A stretch of DNA of 44,561 nucleotides from a virus (IMGVR_UViG_3300030380_004215:15803-60363), one strand, 5' to 3'; counted from the stretch's first letter, positions 3,650-27,747 are shown. The notes: generated from the letters alone by a model not told the origin. Program-made: numbers and translations.

Positions 3650-4387
3650 TTAAAATTCTTCGTACTCAATGTATTGAGTTAGGTCTTCACTTGAATCCTC
3701 TGCAAAGAACTTTTTATATACTTCTATAGCCTTTAAAACTTTATCCCTACCTCTCAATATAGTTTCTTCTATTGGTGTGGCAATTTTAAGTTTAAGTGTC
3801 TTCTTATCTACTATGTAAAACATAACAGGCTTATTAAATATCTGCTGATATATGTATGCTTGACTATCGTAATTATAATCATTAGCACTCCACTTCCATT
3901 TATCTATATTGGATGAGGTTTTGATATCAATCACGTGAGTATCAGTAATTATATCAGCTTTGCCTTTCCACTTCATTCCAAACAATTCTACAACACCAGG
4001 TTGTTCATACATGTTTTGATCCATATATATATCACTATACATTGTAAAGTTAGATTGCATTGCTTGAATCCAAGTATCAATAGTTTCTATTTCTTTTTGT
4101 AAAAGAACATCATAGTTGTCCAAATTGTTTTCTACAACATACTCTTTGAAAACTTTGGTACTTCTTGTAGATGAATCCACAACAGCATACTCTCCTATTT
4201 TGGAGGGCTCGAGCATAGCAGTATGAAAATACCTACCCATAATTAAGGGTAAAGTTTTTTCATTTTTCCTGAAGTCTCTAGGGTTATTTAATAAACTATA
4301 TATGTCTGAGTTGGATAAATAATTTCTACCCAACTCTCCATAATAATTCTTATCATCCTTGAGTTGCTCTATTATATTACTTGACAT
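3650..4387 (-). CDS. PD-(D/E)XK exonuclease, RecE/Cas4-like
   Basis: This 245-residue protein carries the nuclease core GKADII...VIDIKTSS (about residues 143-159), the Gx(n)D...(D/E)xK signature of the RecE/lambda-exo/Cas4 branch of PD-(D/E)XK nucleases, with a following conserved Gln-Tyr motif (SQAYIYQQ). The N-terminal half (LSNSDIYSLLNNPRDFRK, LIMGRYFHTAMLEP) matches the RecE/DUF3799-type entry region. It would resect double-strand ends 5' to 3' to give single strands for the annealing protein encoded just upstream. The two genes overlap by 11 bases, so they are translated as a pair. I am confident of the fold, less so of the polarity. Confidence 0.85.
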   Translation of the reverse strand: MSSNIIEQLKDDKNYYGELGRNYLSNSDIYSLLNNPRDFRKNEKTLPLIMGRYFHTAMLEPSKIGEYAVVDSSTRSTKVFKEYVVENNLDNYDVLLQKEIETIDTWIQAMQSNFTMYSDIYMDQNMYEQPGVVELFGMKWKGKADIITDTHVIDIKTSSNIDKWKWSANDYNYDSQAYIYQQIFNKPVMFYIVDKKTLKLKIATPIEETILRGRDKVLKAIEVYKKFFAEDSSEDLTQYIEYEEF

Positions 4388-4967
4388 AGGCTCCGAGTTC
4401 TTTCTTCAGTGCAGTAGGCACTACATATTTCTGTTCAATAGCTTTCATTGTAGTTGCAAATGGTTGATTGCTTTTACTCTTTACATAATCTACTACACTA
4501 TCCCATTTCTCGTGGCTCTTTTTTAATGTGTCTTTTGTCTTTGCCTTTACACTTGGCGCTGACTCACTCACATCAACAAGGTCCTCTCCTGCCCATAAAG
4601 ACAATCCTAATCCATGCATACCTATAGCCTTGACTGTACTACGTTGTATAGCCTTGTTTACCATAAATGATGTGATCTTGTCTTGTGTTACGGATCTGTT
4701 TTGATTATCCATAATCGGCAGATAATCAATGTGTTCTACCCCCTTAACAGTAACACCAACCTTTACATAAGCTGTACTACCATCACTGAAATAATTAAGA
4801 CCTGTGTGTGCACTTTCATACACAGTTCTATTGCTGTCAGGATATTTATCTTTTACTATAGCCCAGGCATATGCCCAAGATAAGTAATCAAATCTTCCCT
4901 TTTTTTCTACTTTACCTTTTACATTTATAGAGGTAAGTTCTTTGAATGTTGACTTTGTGTTTGCCAT
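4377..4967 (-). CDS. Single-strand annealing protein, DUF1071/Sak3-like
   Basis: This 196-residue protein shows family landmarks: DYLSWAYAWAIVKDKYPD near residue 27, a central beta region (TAYVKVGVTVKG), and NKAIQRSTVKAIGMHGLGL followed by LWAGEDL around residues 104-131. These fit the DUF1071 group of phage annealing proteins, which coat single strands and pair complementary DNA, like Red beta. The charged C-terminal tail (about 140-196) may contact the SSB. It overlaps the exonuclease gene by 11 bases; together with the SSB-like protein they make a complete recombination trio. The initiator ATG follows ATTAATT, the local start context. Confidence 0.88.
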   Translation of the reverse strand: MANTKSTFKELTSINVKGKVEKKGRFDYLSWAYAWAIVKDKYPDSNRTVYESAHTGLNYFSDGSTAYVKVGVTVKGVEHIDYLPIMDNQNRSVTQDKITSFMVNKAIQRSTVKAIGMHGLGLSLWAGEDLVDVSESAPSVKAKTKDTLKKSHEKWDSVVDYVKSKSNQPFATTMKAIEQKYVVPTALKKELGAYVK

Positions 4968-7180: not shown

Positions 7181-7336
7181 TTAAGTTATACCCGAAGGTA
7201 GCCGTCTTTCCGTGCTGTCAGTCTTGTTGTAATTTAACGAGCATATTATATGAAAACAATTGATGCACCTCGTTTTTGACTCACGCATTACAACGTCCTA
7301 CATTAGCGACAACTAAGGATGGTTATCGTGCATCAA
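7181..7336 (-). other. Structured non-coding gap (nested inverted repeats, possible RNA)
   Basis: This gap after the 3D-domain gene holds a TACC/GGTA stem around a UUCG loop (minus strand; 7189-7200), an 8-bp inverted repeat GTTGTAAT/ATTACAAC (7226-7233, 7287-7294), a nested 6-bp repeat AACGAG/CTCGTT (7236-7241, 7269-7274) and a 9-bp repeat TTGATGCAC/GTGCATCAA (7260-7268, 7328-7336) whose first half lies in the loop of the others. If transcribed, these would make a pseudoknotted fold. A 35-codon frame (7288-7181) also exists but is not convincing. Confidence 0.35.
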
Positions 7337-7715
7337 CCAATATAATTTTTATATTTTCCCATTTGCCTCCCTTCATACTTTCGTTTACAAGGAAGTCTAT
7401 TCTCTTTGTCCACCTTCTATTCATTCTATCCTCTACTGTATATATTCCGTCCATATGCTGTGCCCCCATAACCATTACACGTTTGCCGAATACAAAGCCG
7501 AGTTCTTCCAGGTCTCTTGATACTGCTATCCACCTGTGTCCTGCAGGATTGCTTGGATCTATGTGTTTGCCACTGGCTGTGATCAGGGGTGTGCTATCTG
7601 TCTGTCCCTCTACTGCGTGGTAGATCGTTGCATCTACAACTACCTCATTAGTGGGGGTATACCTTCCCCCAATGATGAGTGTGAACAGTCCTATTCCCAT
7701 TACTGTTTTCATCAT
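7323..7715 (-). CDS. 3D-domain (RlpA/MltA-like double-psi barrel) exported protein
   Basis: The 130-residue protein has an N-terminal hydrophobic segment (GIGLFTLIIGG, residues 7-17) suggesting export or anchoring. The rest matches the 3D (Asp-Asp-Asp) domain: ATIYHAVEGQTDSTPLITASG at 29-49, HRWIAVSRDL at 60-69, and VEDRMNRRWTKRIDFLV at 94-110 with Asp96 and Asp107 as likely barrel-site acids. 3D domains occur in peptidoglycan-acting proteins such as MltA and RlpA. Its start overlaps the stop of the membrane peptide gene (ATGA), implying joint function at the envelope, perhaps in cell-wall change or lysis. The fold call is good; substrate is unknown. Confidence 0.72.
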   Translation of the reverse strand: MMKTVMGIGLFTLIIGGRYTPTNEVVVDATIYHAVEGQTDSTPLITASGKHIDPSNPAGHRWIAVSRDLEELGFVFGKRVMVMGAQHMDGIYTVEDRMNRRWTKRIDFLVNESMKGGKWENIKIILVDAR

Positions 7716-7810
7716 AATAAATGTGTTTTAATTAATAAATATATAAGTATCACTATGATACCTATAAGGCTATAAAAGGTTGCCTTTGCCTTGTCTTCGT
7801 ACTTGCTCAT
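7712..7810 (-). CDS. 32-aa single-span membrane peptide
   Basis: The frame begins MSKYEDKAKATFYS and continues with a run of hydrophobic residues (LIGIIVILIYLLI, about 15-27), giving a short membrane peptide with a charged N terminus. Its TGA overlaps the ATG of the 3D-domain gene by four bases (ATGA), typical of coupled genes. A holin-like or anchoring role beside a cell-wall protein is possible, but the sequence alone cannot show it. Confidence 0.6.
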   Translation of the reverse strand: MSKYEDKAKATFYSLIGIIVILIYLLIKTHLL

Positions 7811-7812
7811 AA

Positions 7813-8811
7813 TTACATATATTTAGTTATACTATTTATTTGTTGGTGCTTGTCTATTGTTCCGTAACACACATCACAATAACAATCTCCATAGTCCATT
7901 ATTGGCTCAGGGTTTGCACAGGTACATTCATCACTAATGTAATCATTGTAGCCATCATATCCATTGTAGTCCCATACATCTTCTGTGTATGTCTTGTGAT
8001 ACTCACCATTGTCGTGATTGTCATTGAAATATACATAAGGCATAAACACATTACCCTTGTTTGTGATTACCTCTATGCGTTTGCGTTGATACCAATGTGG
8101 GTGTCCCTCTAACATATCAATATCCATCATAGCATCTTTGTCTACTAAGAACAAGTCAATGTCTACATTGTGTCCATCGCCTACTCTGTTTAGTAGATAT
8201 GGTATTCCCTTGACTACCATTGGATATTTGTCTACCGTTTCTCCACTACCTACATATGTTTCAGTTCTTAGATGTGCGTGATAGTTTGAATAACCTTTCT
8301 TCAACGTACCATACACACCAATCAATGTCATATCCAACACGTTGTCTTTACTATACATAATCTTGTTGCGTGTAATCCAATCTTCTTTGTTGTATATAGT
8401 AAACGATTTCTTCTTGAGGTTTGCAGTAACAAATCTTGAGTCGTTCATCTCCAGCACACTTCTCCACCTCTTGCGTGGTAAGTCGCTGAGTATCTCTGCC
8501 ATATGCTGAGTGTCTGTCTTCTTCTTGTTGCCAAGCCCATGCACCGTTCCGTTCTGAAACAATATGTTGTCATCATCAATATGGAATGGGTGACAATTTG
8601 CTCGACATACTTTGCCGACTGTTGCATACCTGAAGTGTGCAATGTATGGTCGTTGTGTCTTCAACTCCATATAATCTTTGCTATCGTGATACGTTACTTT
8701 CCACGTGTCTAGCCATAATATCCCAAGTCCATCAGGATTTTTGATTGCCGAAGTCAATAAGGTTTCTGTCTTGATTAACTTCTTGTTGTTTTTAATAATA
8801 ATAATACACAT
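7813..8811 (-). CDS. Class II glutamine amidotransferase fused to gamma-glutamylcyclotransferase
   Basis: This 332-residue fusion has two enzyme parts. Residues 1-150 are a class II (Ntn) amidotransferase: Cys2 directly after Met as nucleophile, NPDGLGI at 25-31, AHFRYATVG at 58-66, HPF at 74-76 and NGTVHG at 87-92. Residues about 163-265 are an AIG2/BtrG-like cyclotransferase: VYGTLKKG at 166-173 and DMLEGHPHWYQRKR at 232-245, with Glu235 the likely catalytic acid. The C terminus has a Cys cluster (CTCANPEP...CYCDVC) that could bind zinc. The first half would release ammonia from glutamine; the second would cleave gamma-glutamyl bonds. It lies 2 bases after the amidoligase gene. Association of these families in phage operons has been noted by comparative genomics; the substrate is unknown. 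Confidence 0.82.
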   Translation of the reverse strand: MCIIIIKNNKKLIKTETLLTSAIKNPDGLGILWLDTWKVTYHDSKDYMELKTQRPYIAHFRYATVGKVCRANCHPFHIDDDNILFQNGTVHGLGNKKKTDTQHMAEILSDLPRKRWRSVLEMNDSRFVTANLKKKSFTIYNKEDWITRNKIMYSKDNVLDMTLIGVYGTLKKGYSNYHAHLRTETYVGSGETVDKYPMVVKGIPYLLNRVGDGHNVDIDLFLVDKDAMMDIDMLEGHPHWYQRKRIEVITNKGNVFMPYVYFNDNHDNGEYHKTYTEDVWDYNGYDGYNDYISDECTCANPEPIMDYGDCYCDVCYGTIDKHQQINSITKYM

Positions 8812-8813
8812 AA

Positions 8814-10118
8814 CTATTCTTCTTTTCTATAATTAATAAATGGATCTGTGAGGTCTGTTACCTCTTCAGCAATAAGATATCTTCTGAAATCCCTTGCTAT
8901 ACTATATATCTGTTCTACTTTTTGTTCGTCACCCTTGTACATCTTCATCACAATGTGCTTGACCTTTTGTAAGTACACTTCAAATGATGTTGGTTTGTTG
9001 TATGTTAGGTGTAACATCTTGTACATCAAGTCATACCTAAGTTTCATTTGCTTTGTGTTCTTGATCGCTGAGGGTATTCTGAACTCTACTTTGTTACCCT
9101 TGACATGTACTGGCGAATACTTGTAGTTGTTTTCTTTCTTCACTGGCTTGTTGCTTTCACAATAAGTTCGCTTAAGTCGATGTCGATACAATGCATAGAG
9201 TAACGCTATCTTCTGTCGTAATTTATCTACTGTGTCGTACCCATCTTCTGCTCTCATACCTTGATGCAAATCCTCACCCCTTGGAGTCCGAACTTGTATA
9301 GTCATATGTCCACCACAACTTGTGTCTGTTGCACTACCTATGATTTTTTCTGCTTCATCTATGTACTCAAACACTTTCTTTCTATTCTCACTACGAGGAG
9401 ATGATAAAGGTAGTATGTGCGTGACTGCTTCAACCCCACACGAACTATCTGTTTCATATCCAGCAAACAACTTTTGCTCACCCACTTCATCCCCCACTTC
9501 TTCAGCAACTCCATAATCAGTATTAAAGTATTTTTTCTCTACTTCAAAACCTATTGTGAATTGTGCGTGACAGTCAATGATGTGACATACATTATCCTTT
9601 GATGAATGATACTCGCATACATCTATACCTACGTTTCCATCATGAACATTTGACTCGTCCCAATAGTAACACTCTTCATTTTCACACCAATGTGCATCAT
9701 CAATGTGTACGTGTTCATCAATGTCTTCACAATATGCTGCATCATCACAATGAAGATAGTAGCCATCAGCCAATCCTCTTTCAACATATCTCCAATCATA
9801 ATCCTCAGCAAAATTATCTTCGTGTCCTACTACATCACAATACGATACTGTTCTTGCATCAAGGTTTGCATAGTGACAACTTGCTACATCACAATAGAAT
9901 GTATCGTCTTCGTATGCTTGTATTCCTTCATCTTCTACCCATACAAACATTCCACTCTGTGAAACACAATCAACATCTCCCCAGTCATAGTCCCCATTGT
10001 ACCATATTTGTTCGGCATTCCCCTTGACAATATCTTTTTGTTGCCACTCTGAATACACGACCTCATCAGGCTTATAAAACTCGCCATCGATTTCTATTAA
10101 GTTTTTTGTTTCTTCCAT
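8814..10118 (-). CDS. Amidoligase (COOH-NH2 ligase) with Cys/His-rich N-terminal repeats
   Basis: The C-terminal half (about 185-434) fits the Amidoligase_2 family: FTIGFEVE at 187-194, ETDSSCGVEAVT at 222-233, CGGHMTI at 268-274 and KVEFRIPSA at 343-351, the acidic, His and Arg residues expected of this glutamine-synthetase-like ATP-using fold. Such enzymes join a carboxylate to an amine. The N-terminal half (about 1-180) is very acidic and aromatic, with repeated Cys, His and Trp (YCDVASCHYAN, YCDVVGHED, HWCENEECYYWDE), resembling linked small zinc-binding units that could bind a target. The gene directly precedes the amidotransferase-cyclotransferase fusion. The three activities together suggest peptide, cell-wall or protein modification; the real substrate is unknown. 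Confidence 0.82.
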   Translation of the reverse strand: MEETKNLIEIDGEFYKPDEVVYSEWQQKDIVKGNAEQIWYNGDYDWGDVDCVSQSGMFVWVEDEGIQAYEDDTFYCDVASCHYANLDARTVSYCDVVGHEDNFAEDYDWRYVERGLADGYYLHCDDAAYCEDIDEHVHIDDAHWCENEECYYWDESNVHDGNVGIDVCEYHSSKDNVCHIIDCHAQFTIGFEVEKKYFNTDYGVAEEVGDEVGEQKLFAGYETDSSCGVEAVTHILPLSSPRSENRKKVFEYIDEAEKIIGSATDTSCGGHMTIQVRTPRGEDLHQGMRAEDGYDTVDKLRQKIALLYALYRHRLKRTYCESNKPVKKENNYKYSPVHVKGNKVEFRIPSAIKNTKQMKLRYDLMYKMLHLTYNKPTSFEVYLQKVKHIVMKMYKGDEQKVEQIYSIARDFRRYLIAEEVTDLTDPFINYRKEE

Positions 10119-14551: not shown

Positions 14552-16129
14552 ATGAATCCAAAGATACTCTCATTCGATGAGCAGGGAAGGGAAAAACTAT
14601 TAAGCGGTATCACACAAATAGCCAAAGCTGTTAAAAGCACGTTAGGGCCACTCGGCCAAACGGTTCTAATAGAATCCCAAAACCATACGCACGGAATTAC
14701 AATTACAAAAGACGGAGTGACCGTTGCTAAATCTATTGATCTTGAGGATGCAGTAGAGAATCTTGCAGTACGCATGATGAAGGAAGCGGCAGAACGCACA
14801 GCTAACTCGGCAGGTGACGGAACAACTACAGCAATTGTGTTAACCGAAGCAATAGTCCGTGAAGGATTGCAGTATTTTAAAAGACAAGAGAACGCAAACA
14901 AGACTATGGTAGTTCGTGATATAAATAGGATTACCGATAAGCTGTTGAAGGATCTAACTTCTAAATCTAAAAAGGTTACAGGCAAGACATTGAAAGATGT
15001 GGCAACTGTTTCTGCTAATAATGATGAAGAGCTTGGGCAGATGATAGCTAATGCTTATAAGGAATTAGGGAATGACGGAATATTAACCGTAGAAAATAGC
15101 AAAACAGAAGAAACTTACTACGAAATTACCAAAGGAATCAAAGTAGATAGAGGATATACTTCTAAATTGTTTATCAATAACCAAAGAAACGATGAATGTA
15201 TTCTTGATGATGTACATATTTTAGTTACAGACATGGAGATTACAAACATTCTTCAAATTGAAACCGTGCTTAAACCAATAATCAACCAAAATAAAAAATT
15301 ATTGATCATAGGCAATTGCGTTCAGAACGTAATCAACACGCTTGCTGCAAATGTTGTGCAGAATAATCTAAAGCTTTGCAATATTATACCACCATCGTTT
15401 GGATATAAAACAAATGAATTGCTTTCAGACATAGCATTGGCAACAGGAGCTAAGTATTTCAGCGAATCACAGGGAGATAACTTAGGATTACTTACAATGA
15501 ATGACCTTGGTCACGCAAATAAAGTGATAGTAGGTAAAGAATCTACAGTAATTATCAAAGATCAGCAAGATAATCCAGAGATTACTACAAGAATTGAAGA
15601 ATTGAAAGTTCAAAAAGAAAATAGTAAGCTTAAAAAAGACAAAGACTTCGTGAATGAGCGAATAGCTTTGCTATCTGGTGGAGTTGGAGTGATGTATGTA
15701 GGTGCAAACTCAGATATTGAGCAAAAAGAAAAATTTGACCGCATCGATGATGCGGTATGTGCTGTACGATCAGCCGTTGAAGAAGGAATCCTGCCAGGTG
15801 GAGGAATATCTTTACTAAGATGCGCAGAACAGCTAGAAGAATCAGATGCAGGAGATATATTGTATGGAGCATTGTGCTCACCTATAGAACAAATCCTGAA
15901 TAACGCAGGAGAAGACGTAAAAAAAGTGAGAGATGAAATATGCAATTGTAATGATGTCCCAGATAACTACGGTTATGACGTAAAAAATAAAAAGTTTGGT
16001 GATATGTATAAAATGGGAATCATAGATCCAGCAAAAGTAACAAAGAATGCATTAAAGAATGCAGTGAGTGTAGCAACAACTATACTTACTACAAATGCAA
16101 TCGTAACAATGAAACGTAAAAATGGCTAA
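14552..16129 (+). CDS. groEL: Phage-encoded chaperonin GroEL
   Basis: This 525-residue protein matches GroEL along its length. ATP-site features are kept: LGPLGQTV at 31-38, TKDGVTVAK at 52-60 (Asp54), GDGTTTA at 88-94 (Asp89), IDDAVCAVRSAVEEG at 398-412 (Asp400) and GILPGGG at 412-418, equivalents of the E. coli catalytic Asp52, Asp87 and Asp398. The apical region (about 180-375) is present but diverged. The Gly-Gly-Met tail of bacterial GroEL is missing; the protein ends MKRKNG. It would fold capsid or other phage proteins in the cytoplasm. A groES gene follows at 16,401. Viral chaperonins are known from marine phages. Confidence 0.96.
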   Translation: MNPKILSFDEQGREKLLSGITQIAKAVKSTLGPLGQTVLIESQNHTHGITITKDGVTVAKSIDLEDAVENLAVRMMKEAAERTANSAGDGTTTAIVLTEAIVREGLQYFKRQENANKTMVVRDINRITDKLLKDLTSKSKKVTGKTLKDVATVSANNDEELGQMIANAYKELGNDGILTVENSKTEETYYEITKGIKVDRGYTSKLFINNQRNDECILDDVHILVTDMEITNILQIETVLKPIINQNKKLLIIGNCVQNVINTLAANVVQNNLKLCNIIPPSFGYKTNELLSDIALATGAKYFSESQGDNLGLLTMNDLGHANKVIVGKESTVIIKDQQDNPEITTRIEELKVQKENSKLKKDKDFVNERIALLSGGVGVMYVGANSDIEQKEKFDRIDDAVCAVRSAVEEGILPGGGISLLRCAEQLEESDAGDILYGALCSPIEQILNNAGEDVKKVRDEICNCNDVPDNYGYDVKNKKFGDMYKMGIIDPAKVTKNALKNAVSVATTILTTNAIVTMKRKNG

Positions 16130-23787: not shown

Positions 23788-26700
23788 ATGGCAAAAATTA
23801 GCAATACTTTATCATATCCCAATCAATCTCCTATTGAGGGAGCAGATTATTTGATTGGAACAGCTGCAAATTCAACACCAATTGATAAGCAGACCAAAAC
23901 ATTTACAATACAAGGTATTGCTGATTATGTTATTGATTCCGCATTTAATGGCGTGTCTTATAGACTGCCAATTTTTACAGCATCAAGTGTAGATCAAGAA
24001 TCAGTTTTATTAGTAAACTCATTACTTTATCAGGACACAGCAGCACCAGCAGGTGAAAAAGCTGAGGTAGTACTTGGCTCAACTGTTTATCTTGACAATG
24101 GAGCAGGAGTTGGTAATTTAATTGTTGCTCAACAAATAACAGGAAATGATGTAACTGCTGTAGCAGATGTTAATGTAGGAGCGGATTTATCAATGGGGGT
24201 AAACACCTACTTTAACAATTCAGTTGTTTATGATGCAAATGACGTACCTGGTACAGGCGAGCAAGTATTAGTTTCTCAGCCTAATGGTACAGTTGAATGG
24301 CAAAATTATCAAGGATCTGGATTAGAGTTTCAGGGTAGTTGGGATGCAAGAACAGCAGCAGAAGGTGGAGCTTTAGGTGATGGAGGTAATCCAAACCTAC
24401 TTAATGTTCCTTTAGATCCTGCTAACACAGGTAAGTATTGGATTGTTACTGCAGATGGTAGTGTTGCTTTAACCACTCAAGGTGGTGCAACAATAACTGA
24501 CTGGAAAGTCGGAGATTGGGCAATAGTATCAGAAGACTTAAACAACAATATATTTTGGGATAAAATAGACAACTCATCAGTATTAACTGGTGGAGGTACA
24601 ACAGGCAACATTGCAATATGGACTTCTCCTAATGAACTAGGAGATGCTCCAATAGTTATCGATCCTATTCCAGGTGGCACATCAATGGCCTTTAACGAAA
24701 CTGCAACTCATACAATTACAGGCACTGCAGGATCGAATGCGTTTGGTAGTGATCAATTAATCACAGCAGATTTAGCTATTAGTGGTGGAGAAGACAATGA
24801 AAATGCTGGTCAATCATCAATTGTAGTTGGCTCTAATATTGTTAACAATGCAGCTGAATTAGCAGCATTTGGTAAAACTCATAATATTAGTTCACAATCC
24901 ACTCACTCTTTAGTCGCAGGTGCCGCTAACACGGTTGACGGCTCAAAGAATGTTGTGGGAGGTAAAGACCATACTATTACTGCAGATACTAGTGCAGTAT
25001 TCGGTGCCACAAACGATGTGAGCGGATTGGGTCATTTAGTTTCAGGTAGTGGCAATCAAGTTTCTGGAGAATTAGGATTTTTTGGAGGTTTAGATAATAC
25101 TTGTAGTACAGATTTTTCAATAATAGCAGGGGAAGGTAACTCTGTTACTGCGGATCATGGTACTGCATTTGGAAAAAGTAACTCTGTGACTGGACAGTAT
25201 TCTACAGCAATGGGAGTGGATACAATAGCTAGTGGAGTTACAAGTTTTGCAGCTGGATTTACGGCTTTAGCTTCTGGAGGCAACTCGGTAGCAATGGGTA
25301 GTAATCCAATAGCATCTAATACAGGAGCTGTAGCTTTAGGTGTTACTGTTACAGCATCAGGAGAAAAATCTTTTGCCTCAGGTCTTGATACAGTAGCAAG
25401 TGGATTAGCTTCTACAGCAATGGGGAATGACAGTGAAGCAAGTGGAATTAATTCGTTTGCAGCAGGAAAAGCCAATATTGCTTCTGGGAATCAATCTACA
25501 GCGTTTGGACAAGGATCTGAATCATCAGGTAATTTTAGTATATCATGGGGAGAGGGATCTCAAGCAATTGGAGACTATTCCACTGCAGGAGGTGATAGTT
25601 GTGAAGCAAAAGGAAATAAATCTGTTGCGCTAGGAGATCAAACTCTAACTGAAAAAGATGGAGGTATTTCTTTAGGTACTAAAACTCAATCACTAGATAA
25701 TTATGATGTGGCTATCGGGGACGGTGCAATAGCGCAAGGAGAAAATTCAGTATCTATAGGTAAAGACACAAACGCTACAGGATTTAAATCAATGGCCTTA
25801 GTAGATTCATCGGTTGCAAGTGGAGAGACTTCATTAGCAGCTGGTAAAGCCGCAGCAGCATCAGGTGATGCTTCAGTTGCTATAGGAAATGCAGCAGCTT
25901 CTTCAGGAGTAAGCGCAATAGCACTAGGACAAGAGGCTGAAGCGCAAGGAGAAGGATCAGCATCACTAGGATTTAAAGCTTTTGCTGTAGGAAGAAACTC
26001 CGTAGCATTAGGCCCTGAATCATTAGCAAACGGAGAAGGATCTATTGCAATGGGACAAGGTTCTTCAGCAAATGGTAAATACTCTGTAGCAATTGGATCA
26101 GAAAATGATATAGTTGAAGATGGAGGACAAGGAAATGTAGCAATAGGTAACAACAATAAAGTTAATGATATTGCGGCAGCACAACCAGGTGATGGTAACT
26201 TTGCACTAGGTAATTCTAATACAATAACTGGTAGTGTAGGTGCTGTTGGTGAAGGAAATGAATGGCTAATTACTGCAGGTTCAGTTGGAAGAAAAGCTCT
26301 AGTTTTAGGTAATGATAATAAACCTGCTAACGCAGCATCAGGTAGAGTAGGAGCAATAGTGTTAGGTAACTCACTTAACAACTTTGCACAAGATAATGCA
26401 ATATATATCGGAGGTGCTAATAGAACTTCATTCTATTCTAACCAAAAACCAGGTCCAACCAATTTAAGTAAGGAAATAGTAAGAATGGTTGGCAGTGCTG
26501 TAAGAATAGGCACAGGTTTAGTAGTAGCAGACAGGGTAGACATTGGTTCTAATGTTCCTGCAGGAAGTATGATTGTTGGGCCATACGCATCTAATCAATC
26601 AATAGATAGTAATTCTGTAGGTTGTGCAGTAATTGGAATTAGAAATGAAATTATAAACGGTACTGGATCTGCAATTTTAGGAGTAGATAACAGTGCTGAT

Positions 26701-27747
26701 TTTACTAACTCAACTGACACAAGTCGAAGTCATATAATAGGTTTCCAAAATAATATGGAAAACTGTTATTCTTCATTTATTGTCGGTGGTCAAAATGAGA
26801 TACAAACAAACAACAATGGATTTGCTTTAGGATTTAGCCACATACTTAAAGGTCAAGACTCAATGTTTGCCTTTGGAGAAAACAATACAGGGCCAAGTGG
26901 AGTTAACGACAGAAACTCATTTATGATTGGTGGTCAGCTTATAGGTTCTGACAAAACAATGAATTTAGGATTCAGAAACAATATTGCTGAATATCCTGCT
27001 AGCAATAGAAATGCAGGATTAGGAGATGTTACTTTTAGTGTATCTACAGGGCTAAACACAAACATAAGTTCAAACGCATTATTAATCACGGAAGGTGGAA
27101 TAAATGGTGGAAACCCAAGTGTACCGCAAGTACCAAGAATAATATTGCCTACAGTACCATCATTCGAAGCCAGCGATGATGCGGCTGCAGATGCAAGAGG
27201 AATTCCAAAAGGAGGGTTGTATCATGATAATGGTGTGGTTAGAGTAAATAGAGGTACAGGATCAACATCAAATTCAGCTCCTTTAGTTTCTTTTAACGGA
27301 ACTTTTGTAAACTTCGGTGCTTCTGGTGGAGGTGCAGATATTTTAGGAGGAAGTAGTGTAGATTGGGGTGTAGAGCAAAATACAGCAAGTGATCACTTCC
27401 CATTCTTAATTGTTCCAGGGCCTTTTAAAATTATAGGAGTTGGATGTCAGTGGGGATCAAATTTAGACTATCAAGTTGCTAATGGAAGCTCTACAGTTAG
27501 TTTCACAATAAGTTCTGCACCACTAGGATCTGTAATGACTGATCCTGCAAGCTGGACTACTGTTGGAACAATAACAACTCAATGGGACGGTACTTCAGGA
27601 GCGTCACCAGGATTCTATGAAACAGTAAGTCTTCCTGCATCAGGTAATTTACAAGGATTGGTTGTTCAAATAACAGCAGTTGCAAGTTCAGGATTTGCAA
27701 ATACTGGAGAAGAAGTGGAAGCAAATCTTTTATTTGAAAAAGTATAA
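23788..27747 (+). CDS. Tail fibre / receptor-binding protein with YadA-type repeats
   Basis: The 1319-residue protein starts with a short attachment module (MAKISNTLSYPNQSPIEGAD). About residues 315-900 consist of many 14-residue-type repeats with Ser/Ala-x-Ala-x-Gly and ASG (for example GVDTIASGVTSFAAG, NEVSPLAT is the antisense shadow), the left-handed parallel beta-roll seen in YadA head domains of trimeric adhesins. Residues about 1190-1319 form a beta-rich C-terminal knob (DWGVEQNTASDHFPFLIV...), the likely receptor-contact end. Fibre trimers would stand on the virion. The repeat region may vary by recombination between copies. No catalytic motifs seen. Confidence 0.85.
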   Translation: MAKISNTLSYPNQSPIEGADYLIGTAANSTPIDKQTKTFTIQGIADYVIDSAFNGVSYRLPIFTASSVDQESVLLVNSLLYQDTAAPAGEKAEVVLGSTVYLDNGAGVGNLIVAQQITGNDVTAVADVNVGADLSMGVNTYFNNSVVYDANDVPGTGEQVLVSQPNGTVEWQNYQGSGLEFQGSWDARTAAEGGALGDGGNPNLLNVPLDPANTGKYWIVTADGSVALTTQGGATITDWKVGDWAIVSEDLNNNIFWDKIDNSSVLTGGGTTGNIAIWTSPNELGDAPIVIDPIPGGTSMAFNETATHTITGTAGSNAFGSDQLITADLAISGGEDNENAGQSSIVVGSNIVNNAAELAAFGKTHNISSQSTHSLVAGAANTVDGSKNVVGGKDHTITADTSAVFGATNDVSGLGHLVSGSGNQVSGELGFFGGLDNTCSTDFSIIAGEGNSVTADHGTAFGKSNSVTGQYSTAMGVDTIASGVTSFAAGFTALASGGNSVAMGSNPIASNTGAVALGVTVTASGEKSFASGLDTVASGLASTAMGNDSEASGINSFAAGKANIASGNQSTAFGQGSESSGNFSISWGEGSQAIGDYSTAGGDSCEAKGNKSVALGDQTLTEKDGGISLGTKTQSLDNYDVAIGDGAIAQGENSVSIGKDTNATGFKSMALVDSSVASGETSLAAGKAAAASGDASVAIGNAAASSGVSAIALGQEAEAQGEGSASLGFKAFAVGRNSVALGPESLANGEGSIAMGQGSSANGKYSVAIGSENDIVEDGGQGNVAIGNNNKVNDIAAAQPGDGNFALGNSNTITGSVGAVGEGNEWLITAGSVGRKALVLGNDNKPANAASGRVGAIVLGNSLNNFAQDNAIYIGGANRTSFYSNQKPGPTNLSKEIVRMVGSAVRIGTGLVVADRVDIGSNVPAGSMIVGPYASNQSIDSNSVGCAVIGIRNEIINGTGSAILGVDNSADFTNSTDTSRSHIIGFQNNMENCYSSFIVGGQNEIQTNNNGFALGFSHILKGQDSMFAFGENNTGPSGVNDRNSFMIGGQLIGSDKTMNLGFRNNIAEYPASNRNAGLGDVTFSVSTGLNTNISSNALLITEGGINGGNPSVPQVPRIILPTVPSFEASDDAAADARGIPKGGLYHDNGVVRVNRGTGSTSNSAPLVSFNGTFVNFGASGGGADILGGSSVDWGVEQNTASDHFPFLIVPGPFKIIGVGCQWGSNLDYQVANGSSTVSFTISSAPLGSVMTDPASWTTVGTITTQWDGTSGASPGFYETVSLPASGNLQGLVVQITAVASSGFANTGEEVEANLLFEKV

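Follow-up and report, generated by a model that had tools for sequence, protein, structure and literature searches.

A two-gene phage module predicted to pair a glutamine synthetase-fold amidoligase with a fused class II glutamine amidotransferase and gamma-glutamylamine cyclotransferase

Results

A 44,561-nucleotide stretch of viral DNA (the window; positions 15,803-60,363 of the 60,363-bp IMG/VR virus record IMGVR_UViG_3300030380_004215) carries on its minus strand two open reading frames (ORFs) separated by a 2-bp gap: 8814-10118 (434 aa, P0002), followed by 7813-8811 (332 aa, P0001). The first encodes a predicted amidoligase, and the second a fusion of a class II glutamine amidotransferase (GAT), a gamma-glutamylamine cyclotransferase (GGACT)-like domain and a cysteine-bearing tail. 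This phage-borne two-gene enzyme module is real and conserved, and is a compact, fused version of the amidoligase/GAT/gamma-glutamylcyclotransferase (GGCT) cassette of phiEco32-, LUZ24- and RIO-1-like phages. From structural models and sequence comparison, we consider it likely that the two genes constitute one glutamine- and ATP-dependent amide-bond-forming module that also contains its own gamma-glutamyl remover. The computational analysis shows the three folds, active sites whose residues are intact and a near-obligate pairing of the genes. A preliminary description, made from the DNA alone, had placed two adjacent genes with three chemistries at this locus; the ORFs, motifs, folds and conserved residues agree with that prediction. 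The features of the module are as follows.

8814..10118, minus strand: amidoligase gene, 434 aa, predicted ATP-dependent amide ligase of the glutamine synthetase (GS) fold with an N-terminal extension (ORF; AlphaFold2 model; GS, YbdK and GmaS matches; profile-profile comparison)
9582..10118, minus strand: amidoligase N-terminal domain, residues 1-179, Cys-rich beta-hairpin repeats (model secondary structure; family comparison)
8817..9581, minus strand: amidoligase catalytic domain, residues 180-434 (residues invariant in 80 homologues)
7813..8811, minus strand: fusion protein gene, 332 aa, class II GAT, GGACT and CxC/CxxC tail (ORF; Pfam; AlphaFold2 model)
8332..8811, minus strand: class II GAT domain, residues 1-160, nucleophile Cys2 (conserved residues; GlmS structure match)
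7963..8331, minus strand: GGACT-like domain, residues 161-283, catalytic Glu235 (PF06094; GGACT structure match)
7858..7935, minus strand: C-terminal CxC-x13-CxxC motif, C296, C298, C312 and C315 (conservation; model strands)

Relatives of both proteins were collected by scanning IMG/VR, which yielded 247 for the ligase and 261 for the fusion protein; 80 of each were kept. The amidoligase carries the motifs FTIGFEVE, CGGHMTI and VEFRIPSA, as previously described, and the motif residues proved nearly or fully invariant in the family. Fifteen columns (G190, E192, E194, K195, E222, D224, S226, G228, E230, L238, C268, H271, E345, R347 and R361) were invariant in 80 homologues. To score conservation of the catalytic residues, each protein was represented only by sequences retrieved via its partner; in the ligase set, obtained via the fusion protein, E192, E194, E230, H271, E345 and R347 were each 100% conserved. 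The motif residues of the catalytic domain are E192xE194, D224xS226, E230, C268GGH271, R314, C320 and E345xR347; the elements GxExE, DxS, EAV (E[AL]V), CGGH (CGxH), R..YC and ExR align with canonical PF12224 members. We take the invariant residues to match, in order rather than atom by atom, the metal/ATP and substrate residues of glutamine synthetases.

An AlphaFold2 model of the amidoligase (predicted local distance difference test, pLDDT, 93.1) was found to align with glutamine synthetase (Z 9.0, 171 residues, 3.7 Å) and with YbdK (Z 8.9, 191 residues, 3.9 Å). A Foldseek search with this model returned GmaS (1.4e-4), type III GS (1.8e-4) and, weakly, Dop, while matches in BFVD included a string of phage models named 'amidoligase enzyme', among them those of Cellulophaga phage phi14:2 and crAss-like viruses.

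The hidden Markov model (HMM) of PF12224 (Amidoligase_2), searched with HMMER, gave no match in the window amidoligase and matched none of 80 homologues at E<=1; a search of the whole record at E<=10 found nothing. As it falls below the PF12224 cut-off, the protein is classed as an amidoligase of GS fold that is related to PF12224 without being a Pfam-recognised member. Comparison by hhalign of the catalytic-domain profile with bona fide PF12224 phage proteins gave E=3.6e-6 (Prob 87.5, 172 columns), against a best E of 0.2 for ten column-shuffled control profiles. The corresponding comparisons of the ligase family with the KBNP1711 and NV1 ligases (two-sequence profiles) or with the single MEP401 gp05 were not significant, though the motifs align. 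The preliminary description had held that the lack of a profile match would speak against the amidoligase. A match is indeed lacking in the plain HMM search, yet this result is overturned by the profile-profile score, the GS fold, the phage amidoligases in BFVD and the invariant motif residues.

Residues 1-179 of the amidoligase form a Cys-rich beta-hairpin repeat domain in the model's secondary structure. An N-terminus exceeding 150 aa was present in 14 family members, 12 of which (12/14) possess 5-12 Cys; the other 87 are short and Cys-poor. At a guess, the domain might bind a substrate or a partner. A phage amidoligase at a related locus (L020) also bears a Cys-rich beta-hairpin repeat domain. 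Among the BFVD matches of the N-terminal domain are proteins labelled LIM domain and metallothionein; these labels probably reflect no more than the content of Cys.

The fusion protein contains the motifs MCIIII (Cys2) and YGTL/LEGHP. In agreement with the cyclotransferase originally assigned here, Pfam detected PF06094 (GGACT) at residues 166-280 with E=1e-16 and 62 bits, against a gathering cut-off of 22.8. The GAT domain was sub-threshold in the window protein (residues 51-97; GATase_6 1.4e-3, GATase_4 1.7e-3), and the PHROG GlmS-like family matched the protein at 4e-6. Among 70 homologues, however, GATase_4 was matched in 68 and GGACT in 69. Of the profile searches that the preliminary description had proposed, that for GGCT was thus positive, that for GAT was positive in the homologues but not in the window protein, and that for Amidoligase_2 was negative.

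In the AlphaFold2 model of the fusion protein (pLDDT 90.7), which was also compared by Foldseek, residues 159-279 match mouse and human GGACT (1vkb/3jub; Z 18.3-18.4, 118-120 residues, 1.6-1.7 Å, 30-32% identity). E235 aligns with the catalytic Glu82 of human GGACT (3jub), the residue mutated in 3jud (E82Q). Residues 2-160 match the GlmS glutaminase domain (1xff; Z 11.8, 156 residues, 3.8 Å), an N-terminal nucleophile (NTN)-hydrolase glutaminase fold. All three of the domains first proposed from sequence motifs thereby found a structural counterpart in the models (GS/YbdK, GlmS glutaminase and GGACT).

The GAT-GGCT scan was partly selected on 'MC[IVL]II', a seed bias; Cys2 conservation was therefore assessed only in proteins retrieved via the amidoligase, and all 53 (53/53) possess Cys2. 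In this set C2, R61, H74, N87 and G88 were conserved at 100% and D100 at 98%, as were Y167-L170 (YGTL) and E235 (98%). R61, H74, N87-G88 and D100 line up with the GATs of other phages and are, we presume, the glutamine-binding and oxyanion residues of GlmS. Loss of the listed residues in homologues had been named beforehand as evidence against the assignments; instead, active-site residues are 98-100% conserved. In the tail, C296, C298, C312 and C315 were each 96% conserved in the 53 homologues, and the model places strands at 303-306 and 309-312 with low-to-medium pLDDT. The CxC-x13-CxxC tail is predicted, probably, to bind zinc. Two features, this conserved CxC-CxxC tail and the amidoligase's N-terminal repeat domain of ~180 aa, go beyond the preliminary description.

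Pairing of the two genes was counted on loci with >=3.5 kb of room on the relevant side. The fusion protein lay downstream in 63/64 ligase loci, and the ligase upstream in 63/64 fusion loci. The ligase came first, on the same (plus) strand, in 145/147 locus pairs; the two exceptions are L085, which has an additional ligase, and the window itself, whose sequence is read in the reverse direction. The genes abut in the window's own sub-clade, and elsewhere they are separated by 0.4-4.5 kb of small genes. Overlapping loci were merged into 119 contig groups. The ligase is present in 104 of these, the fusion protein or a GAT/GGCT relative in 110, and both in 95; groups without both genes are mostly cut by contig ends. 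The GAT and GGACT domains were fused in 92/107 distinct proteins by a strict motif test, which undercounts GGACT, the Pfam count (69/70) being the better one.

The GGACT domain is missing, with ligase and GAT still together, in L020 and in a second set in L085. From this persistence we argue that the GAT serves the ligase. The second set, divergent in sequence (L085:845-2991), comprises an amidoligase with a Cys-bearing N-terminus and then a Cys2 GAT without GGCT; the usual amidoligase of this locus stands beside it at 3815-4726.

When 84,980 prokaryote genomes were scanned by sequence pattern, the full fusion was found once, on a 56-kb contig of a Cytophagales metagenome-assembled genome with the same phage-type neighbours. 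On this basis the module appears to be essentially viral, as far as the scan reaches. The nearest TerL sequences to that of the window come from MW202828 (74%) and then from phages of Flavobacterium, Cellulophaga, Tenacibaculum and Maribacter, which makes a bacterium of the phylum Bacteroidota the probable host.

Phage amidoligase cassettes have been on record since at least 2009 and occur in many phages. Full cassettes are found in RIO-1/PSA-HP1, phiEco32, LUZ24, PaP3, tf, UFV-P2, KBNP1711 and NV1 where, as here, a GS-fold amidoligase, a class II GAT and a GGCT stand in an early-region gene run by replication genes. Pseudomonas NV1 and E. coli KBNP1711, for example, possess two ligases, GAT, ATP-grasp and GGCT, then one small gene and primase/helicase. 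The window module differs in having one ligase rather than two, no ATP-grasp protein, a fused GAT-GGCT and a Cys tail, and its amidoligase, unlike the ligases of the full cassettes, lies beyond the PF12224 HMM. No second ligase or ATP-grasp was found among the Pfam matches of the record's proteins; C75C1, Salgado and MEP401 likewise lack both.

The closest annotated phage record, Podoviridae sp. ctfjg026 (MW202828), has the same gene order, with 49% identity to the window in the fusion protein and 33% in the amidoligase. Its ligase is of 574 aa with a different N-terminus, and only the GGCT is annotated in the record. Phage C75C1 (OQ984151) also possesses a GAT-GGCT fusion downstream of an amidoligase (40% identity over 250 aa). 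However, its ligase is a canonical PF12224 member (3.5e-30) that lacks the N-terminal repeats, ligase and fusion are separated by small genes, and the fusion has no Cys tail. In OM43 phage MEP401, gp05 and gp06 encode an amidoligase and then a Cys2 class II GAT, as here, but the GAT protein has no GGCT domain. Arthrobacter phage Salgado has an amidoligase and a GAT, and Bacillus phage 055SW001 an amidoligase and a GGCT. From these comparisons the stable core would appear to be ligase and GAT, with GGCT a frequent third, and the GAT is therefore favoured as the partner of the ligase. The association of these families in phages, as asserted by the preliminary description, is published (PMC5498523, PMC10580990, PMC3890496); the last of these papers lists the cassette genes of UFV-P2.

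Beyond phages, human and mouse GGACT (3jub, 1vkb) have the fold and catalytic Glu in common with the fusion protein, but are free-standing in animals, whereas in the window GGACT is the middle domain. Glutamine synthetase, GmaS and YbdK have the fold of the ligase, with E-x-E, His and E-x-R in the same order, residues whose roles we presume from glutamine synthetases. The window ligase is only 10-14% identical to these enzymes and its catalytic domain is much smaller.

Two further ORFs of the same region lie outside the module.

7712..7810, minus strand: 32-aa hydrophobic peptide of the same gene run (sequence; tblastn)
7323..7715, minus strand: 130-aa neighbour labelled '3D-domain' in the preliminary description (phrog_21574)

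From these neighbours the preliminary description had put forward, as a hypothesis, a role in peptidoglycan or surface-peptide modification, which the data do not specifically support. The '3D' neighbour had no Pfam match at E<=1, to the 3D domain (PF06725) or otherwise, and no PDB match (four-sequence profile), though it looks RlpA/3D-like by eye; it belongs to phrog_21574, a PHROG of unknown function (2e-24). It is present in 4/119 related contig groups, and was dropped as functional context for that reason. The 32-aa peptide was found by tblastn only at the window's own locus, and as a sequence confined to this genome was dropped as a substrate of the module. Related phages thus keep the ligase/fusion pair, but few contig groups have the '3D' protein and the peptide is confined to this genome; taken over the whole family, neither neighbour supports a role of the module in the cell wall.

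The neighbours that do recur in the 119 groups are GroEL (at least 62), a DnaA-C-like protein (at least 67), a Sak annealase (at least 64), an exonuclease (at least 57) and a 213-aa protein (at least 82), all lower bounds as the fetched flanks were short. The chaperonin GroEL lies at 14552-16126 of the window on the plus strand (Cpn60_TCP1 5.8e-58, PHROG GroEL 9e-134) and is found on the opposite strand, upstream of the module, in at least 62/119 groups; a GroES-like protein (phrog_13932) is encoded elsewhere in the genome. Small proteins sharing the motif 'SWDWLMPVV' (for example L107:3070-3489 and L051:3870-4858) occur around the module in 66 contig groups, with several copies per phage.

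Discussion

We propose a scheme of three steps. The GATase domain would hydrolyse glutamine via Cys2 to ammonia and glutamate; the GS-fold amidoligase would use ATP to activate a carboxylate and join it to ammonia or an amine, forming a gamma-glutamyl or primary amide bond; and GGACT would detach a gamma-glutamyl group, in the form of 5-oxoproline, from an amine, thereby deprotecting, trimming or resetting the product. Ammonia or glutamate may pass between the two proteins. The order of steps, this passage and any substrate are inferred. Its position next to replication/recombination genes of early type makes it probable that the module acts, in the course of infection, on a molecule of the host or the phage.

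Several observations weigh against reading the genes in this way. The ligase family goes unrecognised by the amidoligase model of Pfam itself, and the match to glutamine synthetases is at the level of fold only (best Z about 9, 13-14% identity, 3.6-4.3 Å). The ligase motif CGGHxT has Thr in place of the second His of the usual CGxHVH, and the GAT domain is short, at about 158 residues compared with 238 in the GlmS glutaminase domain. The two genes stand 0.4-4 kb apart in most relatives, so ligase and fusion protein need not form a tight complex. Finally, shared descent of one phage lineage partly explains the co-occurrence within the family and adds to the pairing figure; the independent evidence is therefore the recurrence in unrelated phages. 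A pair without any joint pathway, in which separate nitrogen or glutathione-scavenging enzymes merely sit side by side, would accord with the lone GGCT in L007 and with a bacterial GAT that stands alone in Methylomonas. We judge it improbable in view of the GAT/GGACT fusion in 92/107 proteins by the strict motif test (69/70 by Pfam) and the 63/64 pairing with the amidoligase. The Methylomonas protein (L169-L171), a class II GAT of about 228 aa that starts MCLIIHKPK, is free-standing and lies on bacterial contigs, with no amidoligase seen nearby.

As to the target of the amide-bond-forming module, an envelope peptide and a protein or small amine seem about equally likely. Published accounts of related cassettes treat them as a hypothetical module for the modification of peptidoglycan, one that may prevent superinfection (PMC5498523, PMC11945000, PMC10580990), and this wider literature makes it possible, if tentatively so, that the window module alters the host wall or a surface peptide, for example to block superinfection. 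The '3D' neighbour is, however, rare and without a 3D or PDB profile match, the recurring neighbours are replication/recombination genes, and primase/helicase follow the cassette in KBNP1711 and NV1. For the wall, it may be added that amide and gamma-glutamyl bonds do occur in cell-wall peptides. The ligase may instead add, and GGACT remove, a gamma-glutamyl (or other) group on a protein, a polyamine or a defence-related small molecule, a proposal that we likewise hold with less than even confidence. The middle domain of the fusion finds its best structural match in GGACT (Z 18.4), and characterised GGACT acts on gamma-glutamyl-epsilon-lysine. Furthermore, the GS-fold relatives include gamma-glutamylmethylamide synthetase and, weakly, the protein-tag enzyme Dop, and the presence of ligase and remover in one module suggests a make-and-remove cycle. 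Conversely, no gene for a substrate protein or peptide accompanies the module with a constancy like that of the pair, and the small genes that separate the two are diverse. A specific form of this proposal, which we regard as rather doubtful, is reversible gamma-glutamyl tagging early in infection: the amidoligase would write an isopeptide-type mark, the GATase would feed it from glutamine and the fused GGACT would erase it. If true, this would be a phage-encoded writer and eraser of a modification new to phage biology.

The position of the pair among DNA replication genes also brings to mind hypermodification of DNA, whereby the ligase would attach an amino acid or amide to a modified phage base; amidoligases have been proposed in phage base-modification pathways. 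No base-modifying anchor (of thymidylate synthase or hydroxymethylase type, methyltransferase or hydroxymethyl-base kinase) was present in the Pfam matches of 55 other proteins or among the 25 of 38 PHROG families listed, which makes this explanation very unlikely.

No enzymology or knock-out of a phage amidoligase was found in a phage-directed literature search, and the literature examined names no proven substrate of a phage amidoligase cassette. Full cassettes comprise about five to seven genes and are hard to reconstitute. The window family cuts the set to two proteins with active sites intact, and the fusion makes the functional link between GAT and GGCT explicit. The question of the cassette's target can therefore be put to the test with both proteins in purified form or by knocking out the two genes. 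The family is found in about 100 groups of uncultured phage contigs, and the terminase of the window is related to those of Bacteroidota phages; the phage collection searched yielded no cultured relative with the pair.

Other observations in the genome

In the phage structural region, a 1319-aa protein (23788-27744 of the window, plus strand) possesses 11 YadA head repeats (Pfam 3e-32); resembling a trimeric autotransporter adhesin, it is probably a fibre or receptor-binding protein. One structural protein of the record matches the crAss muzzle C-terminal domain (PF25729, 1.4e-14), which suggests tail parts in common with Crassvirales. Just left of the window, at about 15770-15802 of the record (G000:C1), a short run of unreadable bases breaks a helicase ORF.

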